This document shows positions 8,371 through 18,882 of a DNA stretch of 37,024 nt, in pieces. Position 1 is the first letter of the stretch. Each line of letters starts with the position of its first letter. The translations under genes were made by a program, and so were the position numbers. The notes under the pieces are model-generated. The model worked only from the letters and a program-made list of their open reading frames with translations, made no database searches and was not told where the DNA came from. Origin of the DNA: Bacteroidota bacterium (GTDB lineage: Bacteria; Bacteroidota; Bacteroidia; Sphingobacteriales; Sphingobacteriaceae); assembly GCA_013286985.1 (NCBI GenBank), contig JABDEQ010000018.1, positions 1 to 37,024 of the forward strand, in the 5' to 3' direction.

Positions 8371-9576
8371 ATGGTTAAAAAGTTACATGAGAAAATAGCG
8401 CAATTTCAGGATGCAAATATCATCCGGGAAGCTGGGCTATATCCTTATTTCAGGCCAATAGAGTCTGGGCAGGATACAGAAGTTATTATCGATCACAAGC
8501 GTGTATTAATGTTTGGTTCTAATTCGTATTTGGGATTAACAAACCATCCTAAAATAAAAGAAGCGTCTAAAAAAGCAATAGATAAGTACGGTACAGGTTG
8601 TGCCGGATCAAGATTTCTAAACGGAACGCTTGATATTCATATTGAATTAGAAAACAGGCTTGCAAAATACGTTGGAAAAGAAGCTGCCGTGCTCTTTAGT
8701 ACAGGCTTTCAGGTTAATCTTGGTGTTTTATCAAGCATAACAGGTCGTAATGACTATTTAATATTAGATGAATATGATCATGCTTCATTAATTGATGGCA
8801 GCCGTCTTTCATTTTCAAAGGTCATTAAATACGCCCATAATGATATGGAAGATCTTCAGCGCAAGCTGAGCATCCTGCCGGAAGAAGCAGTTAAGTTAAT
8901 TGCTGTTGATGGTATATTCAGTATGGAGGGTGATATTGTTAAATTACCTGAAATTGTTCAGATAGCAGATCAGTTTGGTGCTAATATTATGGTTGATGAT
9001 GCGCACAGTTTGGGTGTAATCGGTCATAAAGGTGCCGGAACAGCATCGCACTTTAATTTAACTGATGATGTTGACCTGATAATGGGAACTTTCAGCAAAT
9101 CATTAGCTTCGTTAGGTGGTTTTATTGCTTCTGATGCAGAGACTATTGATTATTTAAAACACCGTGCGCGTGCATTGATGTTTAGCGCTAGTATGACGCC
9201 GGGTTCGGTTGCGAGTGTTATTGCAGCATTAGATATTATTGAATCAGAGCCTGAACGTATTGCAAAACTTTGGGATAACACCAATTATGCAATGAAACTG
9301 CTTTTAGAGGAAGGTTTCGACCTTGGCCCTACTGAGAGCCCTATTCTGCCGATTTACGTTCGGGATAATCAAAAGACATTCCTTGTAACAAAACATCTTC
9401 AAAATGAAGGTATATTTGTTAACCCTGTGGTGTCTCCGGCGGTTCCTTCCGATTCTTCTTTGTTACGTTTTTCATTAATGGCTACGCACACATTCGATCA
9501 GATTGATGAGGCTGTTGAGAAAATTGCAAAAGCGTTTAAAGAAGTTGGCGTAACGTCAATCAAAGAAAAAATATAA
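8371..9576 (+). CDS. spt: Serine palmitoyltransferase (alpha-oxoamine synthase family)
   Basis: This 401-residue protein condenses serine with a long-chain acyl thioester to 3-ketosphinganine, CO2 and free thiol, the first committed step of sphingolipid synthesis. Landmarks are the glycine-rich [13 protein letters not shown] (74-86), the cofactor-stacking His137 in [20 protein letters not shown] (208-216) and the Schiff-base Lys243 in [13 protein letters not shown]. The TFSKSLAS form is characteristic of bacterial serine palmitoyltransferases, whereas BioF and Kbl relatives usually have TFSKALGS or TLGKALGG. There is no membrane segment, as expected for soluble bacterial homodimers. Neighbouring ceramide and inositol-lipid genes support the call. 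A terminator follows, so it may be transcribed apart from the next genes. Confidence 0.93.
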
Positions 9577-9618
9577 ACCAATTTTTCGCCATAAACTGGC
9601 TAAAATTTAATAAACAAG

Positions 9619-9654
9619 AAACAATGACAGTCTAAATGCCTGTCATTGTTTTTT
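9619..9654 (+). terminator. Terminator between spt and the acyltransferase gene
   Basis: The arms AAACAATGACAG (9619-9630) and CTGTCATTGTTT (9640-9651) pair perfectly over 12 bp around a 9-nt loop, and the T run extends to 9654. It should end or attenuate transcription from spt. Confidence 0.8.
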
Positions 9655-9691
9655 ATGTTATAATAGATCATTATATATTCTAATCATTTAA

Positions 9692-17142: not shown

Positions 17143-17321
17143 TACACGGAATTGCTCTATTCGCGGTAAATATCATATATTCGCAACAATTTAGTAATAT
17201 CTGTTTTATCAAATAATTCTTTATTATAATTGGGTGATGCTTTTGAATAGTTATATTTAAAAGACCATAAAAATCATTTACAGGCAGAGAAATTATAAAA
17301 TATTTTAACACCTGATTAGTT
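17143..17321 (+). promoter_or_regulatory. Gap with possible promoter before the hydroxylase
   Basis: The 179-nt gap contains TTG (17152-17154), 21 nt, TATATTCG (17176-17183), a near match to the TTTG/TAnnTTTG promoter with one mismatch in the -7 box. No terminator hairpin was found after the phosphatidyltransferase, so read-through is also possible. Confidence 0.25.
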
Positions 17322-17942
17322 ATGAAAAAAAAATACGTTTCAAATTCGCAGGAATCTGCAAGGATGTTCAAAAATGATTTTCTTGAAAGCTTATCAAAAG
17401 TTCATTTTACTGTACCCCTGTTTATATTTATACCGGTTATTGCATTTTGCATTTATCAGGACTTTGAGCTCTCTATTGGAGTATTAAAGTTTGTTGAACT
17501 GTTTGCGCTGGGGCTTTTTGTATGGACCTTTGTTGAATACATTATGCACCGGTTTGTATTTCATTATGTACCCGAAGGTAAAGAATGGGCAATGAGGCTC
17601 CATTTTATTTTCCACGGTGTCCATCATGATTATCCAAGCGATGCCAAGCGCCTGGTTTTACCTCCTTCTGTTAGTATTCCATTAGCAACTGCTTTCTTCT
17701 TTTTGTTTAAAGCCATATTGCCTGCAAATAATATCTGGGGATTTTTCCCGGGTTTTATATTAGGATATCTTTTTTATGATATATCGCACTATGCCATACA
17801 TCATTTCAACTTTAAAGGCAACATCTGGAAAAAAATAAAGCAACATCATATGTTACATCATTACCAGGATCCTGAAAAAGGATATGGTGTGAGCTCTCCT
17901 CTTTGGGATAAAATTTTCCGTTCAGATTTTTTAAAGAAATAG
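17322..17942 (+). CDS. Fatty acid hydroxylase superfamily protein, candidate ceramide/fatty-acid 2-hydroxylase
   Basis: This 206-residue membrane protein has the histidine clusters of di-iron lipid hydroxylases: HRFVFH (76-81), HFIFHGVHH (94-102), HYAIHH (156-161) and HHMLHH (175-180). The spacing and the HGVHHDYPSD block match the FA2H/Scs7 type, which places an OH on C2 of the N-acyl chain of ceramides. Two to four membrane helices are visible (about 28-46, 57-75, 116-150). It is separated by a single base from the Aur1-like gene, so the two are likely translated together. Sphingobacterium is known to make ceramide phospholipids with 2-hydroxy iso-branched acyl chains, which fits. Carotenoid or sterol-type hydroxylation is a less likely alternative. 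Confidence 0.85.
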   Translation: MKKKYVSNSQESARMFKNDFLESLSKVHFTVPLFIFIPVIAFCIYQDFELSIGVLKFVELFALGLFVWTFVEYIMHRFVFHYVPEGKEWAMRLHFIFHGVHHDYPSDAKRLVLPPSVSIPLATAFFFLFKAILPANNIWGFFPGFILGYLFYDISHYAIHHFNFKGNIWKKIKQHHMLHHYQDPEKGYGVSSPLWDKIFRSDFLKK

Positions 17943-17943
17943 C

Positions 17944-18882
17944 ATGGCGAATGCTGCGGGTGATGATGCAAAGGTGACTTTGCGGTCGGTGTTTATTATT
18001 ATTGCCATATCATTAGCTTATTTGCTGCTTTCGTGGAAGCTGGTTGGGTATAAATCAGATCAATTGGTGTTGATTGGAATATTTACCACCATGTATTTCC
18101 TGTCTGCCATAACCCGTAAATTTATTACCGGCTTTGCCATATTTATAGTTTACTGGATCATATTTGATTATATGAAAGCCTTCCCCAACTATAATTATAA
18201 CACTGTTCATATTGCCGATTTATATAATCTGGAAAAGAGGTTTTTCGGAATAAACTTTAATGGTAAACTATTAACACCCAATGAATACTGGAGGCTAAAC
18301 GGCAATACCTTTTTAGATGTAACGGCGGGCATTTTTTATCTTTGTTGGATCCCTGTTCCTTTGGCTTTTGCTGCTTTCCTTTTTTTTAAAAACAGGCGCC
18401 AGTTCCTTTATTTTTCATTGACATTTGTTTTAATAAATATCATAGGTTTTGTTATTTATTACCTGTATCCGGCAGCACCACCCTGGTATGTTGAATATCA
18501 TGGATTTACGTTTTATGCCAATACCCCGGGTAACACGGCTGGGCTTGCCAAATTTGATCAGTATTTCAATGCCGGTATTTTTAAATCTATCTATGCCAAA
18601 GGGTCTAATGTTTTTGCGGCTATGCCATCGTTGCATTCATCATACCCGGTTGTTGTTTTGTATTATGGTATTAAAAATCGTTTAGGTGCCATCAATATCT
18701 TTTTTGCAACTGTTATGCTGGGTATATGGTTTACGGCCGTTTACGCAAGTCATCATTACATTATGGATGTAATAGCTGGCATCACCTGCGCCATTATTGG
18801 CATTAGCCTTTTTAACCTGATTTTGAAAAAAAGCAAATTATTCAACAACTTCCTGAACCGGTACGAAAAAGCAATCCGCTAA
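17944..18882 (+). CDS. PAP2-family membrane protein, candidate inositol phosphorylceramide synthase (Aur1-like)
   Basis: This 312-residue polytopic protein carries YPAAPPW (175-181), MPSLHSSYP (227-235, catalytic-type His231) and SHHYIMDVIAG (269-279, His271 and Asp275), the C2 and C3 motifs of the PAP2/Aur1 superfamily. The C1 motif (KxxxxxxRP) of true phosphatases is absent, as in Aur1-like phosphotransferases. I infer transfer of inositol phosphate from phosphatidylinositol to ceramide, giving inositol phosphorylceramide and diacylglycerol, with the active site facing the periplasm. It follows the hydroxylase after one base and closes the lipid locus. A lipid phosphatase or another phosphosphingolipid transferase (for example ceramide phosphoethanolamine) remains possible. 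Confidence 0.85.
   Translation: MANAAGDDAKVTLRSVFIIIAISLAYLLLSWKLVGYKSDQLVLIGIFTTMYFLSAITRKFITGFAIFIVYWIIFDYMKAFPNYNYNTVHIADLYNLEKRFFGINFNGKLLTPNEYWRLNGNTFLDVTAGIFYLCWIPVPLAFAAFLFFKNRRQFLYFSLTFVLINIIGFVIYYLYPAAPPWYVEYHGFTFYANTPGNTAGLAKFDQYFNAGIFKSIYAKGSNVFAAMPSLHSSYPVVVLYYGIKNRLGAINIFFATVMLGIWFTAVYASHHYIMDVIAGITCAIIGISLFNLILKKSKLFNNFLNRYEKAIR

Follow-up and report, generated by a model that had tools for sequence, protein, structure and literature searches.

Architecture of the locus and its conservation

The stretch of DNA analysed in this study, which comprises 37,024 nucleotides and is in the following referred to as the window, contains nine consecutive open reading frames on the plus strand that together span positions 8371–18882 (Table 1). 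The run had been noted in a preliminary description of this DNA and all nine frames are found in the ORF listing of the window. They are separated by successive gaps of 115, −4, 39, −1, 242, 14, 179 and 1 bases, the widest of which are located after the gene of the serine palmitoyltransferase (115), before the gene of the DUF5686 protein (242) and before the hydroxylase gene (179). The nine proteins were assigned to families with Pfam and NCBIfam models, applying the curated cut-offs of the latter. On the upstream side of SPT, positions 2319–8025 encode a divergent AcrB-type RND pump, a HlyD-like fusion protein and a TolC-like protein, a set that is also found in most long loci of near relatives. 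Downstream of the cluster (19126–20916), a protein of 366 residues that matches no Pfam family and a second one with a CAP domain are encoded, and most long loci of near relatives have retained both.

Table 1. Genes and probable gene remnants of the locus, with positions in the window.
Feature	Position	Strand	Basis of assignment
Serine palmitoyltransferase (SPT), step 1 of the ceramide branch	8371..9576	+	NF047600, 758 bits (cut-off 640)
GNAT-family N-acyltransferase, candidate bacterial ceramide synthase (bCerS-like)	9692..10810	+	PF00583
Extended SDR, candidate ceramide reductase (CerR-like)	10807..11796	+	PF01370
myo-Inositol-1-phosphate synthase (MIPS)	11836..13158	+	PF07994, PF01658
PgpA-family phosphatase, candidate phosphatidylinositol-phosphate phosphatase	13158..13610	+	PF04608
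Probable GtrA remnant in the PgpA-DUF5686 gap	13650..13697	+	tblastn
DUF5686 protein	13853..16411	+	PF18939 with PF13715
CDP-alcohol phosphatidyltransferase, PIP synthase (BT_1523 type)	16426..17142	+	NF052561, 400 bits (cut-off 350)
Probable DUF4833 remnant directly 3' of PIP synthase	17165..17191	+	residue identity to sister loci
Candidate SCS7/FA2H-like fatty acid (ceramide) 2-hydroxylase	17322..17942	+	PF04116 (FA_hydroxylase), Scs7 match
Candidate Aur1-like PAP2 inositol phosphorylceramide synthase (BT_1522-like)	17944..18882	+	PF14378 (PAP2_3)

The MIPS of the window is 98–99% identical to its counterparts in Mucilaginibacter frigoritolerans and Mucilaginibacter sp. X4EP1, and the window shares 86.8% DNA identity with the genome of the latter over an alignment of 21,381 columns, which identifies the host as Mucilaginibacter. 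The preliminary description had instead matched the gene set to the ceramide phosphoinositols of Sphingobacterium. Although ceramide phosphoryl-myo-inositol is cited for Sphingobacterium spiritivorum, homologues of the Bacteroides cluster are, in the sections of the same study considered here, described as absent or infrequent in Sphingobacterium (PMC9246714) and the argument thus does not carry over.

A comparison of synteny, as proposed in the preliminary description, covered 62 loci with a length of 19 kb or more that surround the nearest MIPS relatives and whose record titles refer to Mucilaginibacter or to Bacteroidetes MAGs; the same gene order was found in 60 of them. The shared order reads SPT-GNAT-(SDR)-MIPS-(PgpA)-(GtrA)-DUF5686-PIPS-(DUF4833)-FAH-IPCS, where genes in brackets vary, PIPS denotes the PIP synthase, FAH the hydroxylase and IPCS the PAP2 synthase; in the remaining two loci, the cluster breaks off after MIPS and the synthase is located elsewhere. 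PgpA is in place in 24 of the 62 long loci; like SDR, it is absent from many of the sister clusters. On a broader scale, the model of the synthase matches 57 of 395 genomes sampled from the phylum at E ≤ 0.001, including 14 strong matches after which the score drops from 313 to 42 bits, and 173 of 400 genomes sampled from the order Sphingobacteriales, 171 of them at E ≤ 4e-64 and two weakly. The 72 synthase neighbourhoods analysed in this work comprise 12 of the 14 strong matches of the phylum sample (G001 and G015 being left out as already covered) and 60 of the 171 of the order sample, the latter drawn non-randomly from a score-ranked list, and many of the 72 are close kin. PIP synthase is part of the same gene run in all of them, accompanied by MIPS in 68, DUF5686 in 67, SPT in 66, the hydroxylase in 65, GNAT in 64, DUF4833 in 56, SDR in 55, GtrA in 43 and PgpA in 42 cases, with all nine families of the window found together in 31. 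The number for DUF5686 excludes a false label at L088 and counts once each the genes that are broken into two ORFs (L119, L131 and L145). SPT is present in 6 of the 12 neighbourhoods of the phylum sample and in all 60 of the order sample. The locus is thus typical of its group and not special to this genome.

Enzymes of the ceramide and inositol branches

The first three proteins would account for the formation of ceramide. In this branch, SPT would generate 3-ketosphinganine, acylation may be carried out by the GNAT protein and the subsequent reduction to dihydroceramide by the extended SDR, in an order that follows the proposal for Caulobacter. As far as covered by the consulted sections, the spt-bcerS-cerR pathway of Caulobacter (PMC11087976) uses the same set of SPT, acyltransferase and reductase, whereas in our case the ceramide genes are joined to the inositol branch. 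The candidates for bCerS and CerR were assigned by their membership in the GNAT and extended-SDR families. GNAT directly follows SPT in 64 of the 66 SPT-bearing neighbourhoods, and 54 of the 66 contain the run SPT-GNAT-SDR. Provided that the GNAT and SDR proteins are indeed the ceramide synthase and reductase, this proximity contrasts with the three ceramide genes being cited, in the part of the source considered, as not close together in sphingolipid-producing Bacteroidota (PMC11334938). In two genomes (G060 and G409), SDR and GNAT are absent from the inositol cluster and form an adjacent pair elsewhere. A sphingolipid cluster without inositol genes (L218:9496-17233) shows the order SPT-GNAT-DUF5686-FAH-other CDP-alcohol transferase-GtrA-DUF4833, and its CDP-alcohol transferase is a candidate for the direct transfer of a head group onto ceramide.

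In the second branch, MIPS would provide inositol phosphate, from which the CDP-alcohol transferase would form PIP and the PgpA-family phosphatase in turn PI. MIPS matches an inositol-3-phosphate synthase of known structure (PDB 7nwr_B, E 3e-167). As to the catalytic motifs pointed out in the preliminary description, homologues gathered from the fetched loci, many of which are close kin, show invariant residues: in PIP synthase the positions of the motif D..DG..AR...G...D...D, located at residue 80, are kept in 143 of 143 sequences, and in the PAP2 protein H231, H271 and D275 are invariant in 137 of 137. MIPS, the PgpA phosphatase, PIP synthase and the Aur1-like synthase are encoded in the same order in the operon BT_1522-1526 of B. 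thetaiotaomicron, which, in the sections of both studies considered, lacks the SPT, acyltransferase, reductase, hydroxylase and DUF5686 genes that are all present here, but contains an intact GtrA (BT_1524) of which the window retains only a remnant (PMC9246714, PMC8791184). Knockouts of BT_1522, 1523, 1525 and 1526 are described to cause matching lipid losses (PMC9246714). BT_1525, which could not be deleted in one study (PMC8791184), was removed in another where its deletion led to the accumulation of PIP (PMC9246714), and the single PgpA-family copy is therefore probably the PIP phosphatase also in the present case. Each of 24 related genomes contains exactly one such gene, which is located inside the cluster in some genomes and outside in others (G002 and G008).

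The Aur1-like enzyme would then move phosphoinositol from PI to ceramide, probably at the periplasmic face of the membrane. Since its score of 340 bits against NF052609 (phosphoinositol dihydroceramide synthase) is below the cut-off of 480, we have considered that it might transfer a different head group or act as a phosphatase only, but in light of a PIP synthase in the same gene run of all 72 neighbourhoods, of MIPS in 68 and of the wide score gap that sets the strong matches of the phylum sample apart from the next PAP2 proteins, this alternative is highly improbable.

Besides the Aur1-like enzyme, the end of the cluster encodes the hydroxylase, whose residues 12–200 match the sequence of Scs7 in the PDB (4zr1, E 9.8e-32) and which contains 13 histidines that are invariant in 132 of 132 homologues. 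The PF04116 core and the histidine boxes are shared with yeast Scs7 and mammalian FA2H; in contrast to both, the protein contains 206 residues, in which Pfam detects PF04116 only and no cytochrome b5 domain. The hydroxylase is found in 65 of the 66 neighbourhoods with SPT and in none of the six without, which are also distant kin, thus supporting its association with the ceramide branch. It would hydroxylate the acyl chain at C-2. PF04116 comprises hydroxylases and desaturases of several specificities and elsewhere DUF4833 is fused to a member of this family that matches OlsE weakly (50 bits compared to a cut-off of 475), both of which would be compatible with an action on the long-chain base or a free fatty acid instead. 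We consider such a different substrate unlikely, as the matches in the PDB at E values up to 1 are to Scs7 alone, which is named a ceramide very long chain fatty acid hydroxylase, and we thus favour the C-2 position of the ceramide acyl chain as its candidate target.

Probable remnants of GtrA and DUF4833 genes

Two short segments in the gaps between genes are probably what is left of deleted GtrA and DUF4833 genes. The first shows a tblastn match to GtrA of 75% over 16 residues (E 3.5e-5, in a search against three short gaps only) at a place where sister loci contain the intact gene. In the second, nine of nine residues are identical to several sister loci (E 3.4e-4, for the same three short gaps only), and many relatives have DUF4833 at this place, flanked by the genes of PIP synthase and hydroxylase. 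To describe the system as 'self-contained', as was done initially, is thus too strong for a locus that has kept only remnants of two genes present in many sister loci. The genome of Mucilaginibacter sp. X4EP1 contains, away from its cluster, a DUF4833 match in two pieces (G002:C24:5107-5516), one of them with an in-frame stop.

For GtrA we infer that it may carry PI from one side of the inner membrane to the other. In the Bacteroides studies, as far as considered, loss of the GtrA-like BT1524 was accompanied by lower IPC and higher PI in total membranes in one case (PMC8791184) and by no change detected by TLC in the other (PMC9246714). Among the nine proteins of the locus, Pfam did not reveal a match to a known lipid-flippase family, which likewise speaks against a self-contained system.

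DUF4833 is fused to PIP synthase in 27 of the 72 neighbourhoods, and the best 120 of 3,445 matches to the fusion protein from Spirosoma all contain both domains, with Spirosoma, Pedobacter and Arcticibacter among the names. Its fold is predicted with confidence (pLDDT of 89–97 for blocks from residue 61 on), and a comparison of this prediction with the PDB yielded no convincing match. The domain is not specific for genomes with an inositol phosphorylceramide synthase, as it is found in 16 of 20 synthase-bearing and in 11 of 20 synthase-negative genomes. In six loci (L203, L204, L205, L206, L207 and L215) DUF4833 forms the end of proteins of 491–512 residues that contain histidine boxes, and in the two of these that were subjected to Pfam (L203 and L206) it is preceded by a PF04116 hydroxylase, with the weak OlsE match concerning L203; PF04116-DUF4833 is thus a second fusion of this domain to a lipid enzyme. 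Two loci of synthase-negative genomes (L216:13134-16845 and L217:10311-13405) show the order SDR-PhyH dioxygenase-CDP-alcohol transferase-GtrA followed by DUF4833, which is possibly an alternative locus for sphingolipid head groups with another type of hydroxylase.

The DUF5686 protein and the role of the locus

The DUF5686 protein starts with a hydrophobic stretch followed by a CarboxypepD_reg domain, a beta-rich middle domain (about residues 125–390) and an Omp85-like barrel (about residues 460–852). Counted from the strands listed for the predicted model, the C-terminal barrel comprises 16, of which numbers 11 and 12 are joined by a long and conserved loop; the predicted barrel thus shares the topology of the Omp85 superfamily, which includes BamA, TamA, Sam50 and Toc75. 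As N-terminal domains, Pfam, applied to the complete protein, detects just CarboxypepD_reg and DUF5686, which differ from the POTRA domains that precede the barrel in Omp85 proteins, and a comparison by hhalign, based on shallow alignments, found no profile similarity to Omp85 proteins of Bacteroidota. In Omp85 proteins, the corresponding 11/12 loop carries a VRGF/Y motif, which is not found in DUF5686, where other residues of this loop are conserved.

The protein families, the match to Scs7, the invariant motif residues and the conserved order support the earlier assignment to an inositol phosphorylceramide pathway, whose gene set is complete here and is accompanied by an FA2H-like hydroxylase and a protein predicted to form an outer-membrane barrel. 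We conclude with considerable confidence that this is a full biosynthesis locus for inositol phosphorylceramide whose acyl chain is probably 2-hydroxylated, and that it includes DUF5686 as a presumed outer-membrane protein with an Omp85-like barrel. The latter may place the lipid or maintain the outer membrane that holds it. The activities of all enzymes, the position of the hydroxyl group and the location and role of DUF5686 are deduced from the families and catalytic residues of the proteins, the content and order of the genes and the predicted barrel.

Of the 14 genomes in the phylum sample, 11 contain a copy of DUF5686 at a distance of up to 10 kb from the synthase, compared to 0.2 expected, and the linked type is found in 20 of 20 synthase-bearing genomes, chosen from the order-sample table, but in only 7 of 20 synthase-negative ones taken out of 227 (Fisher p 1.3e-5, uncorrected for kinship). 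In the other three of the 14 genomes, which include both with a synthase above the curated cut-off, DUF5686 is not found near the synthase and it is thus not needed for inositol phosphorylceramide synthesis everywhere. This absence from the clusters of both over-cut-off genomes would also be expected if DUF5686 had a general function in outer-membrane biogenesis or at the cell surface and just happened to reside in the operon, with lipid transport carried out by other machinery, an account that we regard as on balance probable. It is also consistent with the number of DUF5686 genes, which ranges from two to seven per genome in the 15 synthase-bearing genomes that were inspected, and with the linked-type copies of six synthase-negative genomes, which stand alone, no searched pathway gene being found within about 8 kb on either side. 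It is opposed by a tree in which the 27 linked rows tested, from Mucilaginibacter, Spirosoma and several other lineages, fall into one subfamily (the linked rows being taken from 23 of the 67 DUF5686-bearing neighbourhoods and from the window, and three rows that fill less than half of the columns being retained), and by L218, where DUF5686 remains with SPT, GNAT and the hydroxylase in the absence of inositol genes. Unlinked copies of the linked type occur in addition, one in G001 and two in G002.

As a tentative proposal, which we judge to be rather unlikely as a whole, the linked subfamily of DUF5686 might instead be dedicated to the insertion of (hydroxy)inositol sphingolipids into the outer membrane as an Omp85-like factor. 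The locus would then encode the delivery of the lipid together with its synthesis and the joining of its head group, with GtrA (for flipping) and DUF4833 (exported and often fused to PIP synthase) as accessory parts that were lost in the present locus.

The underlying chemistry is already known and leads to a fungus-like membrane lipid. Among the top-ranked results of searches in the open-licence PMC literature we have found no description of the joined arrangement in Sphingobacteriales, the linkage of the hydroxylase, the Omp85-like DUF5686 or the fusion of DUF4833 to PIP synthase, and the searches for DUF5686 and DUF4833 gave no papers on either. The gene run places these two domains of unknown function in lipid biology. 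The conserved run, which contains an Omp85-like protein amid sphingolipid enzymes and is found in culturable Mucilaginibacter and apparently in Pedobacter, offers a concrete candidate for tests. In this respect, DUF5686 may help to position inositol phosphorylceramide in the outer membrane, and the arrangement with its neighbouring uncharacterised proteins provides new leads.
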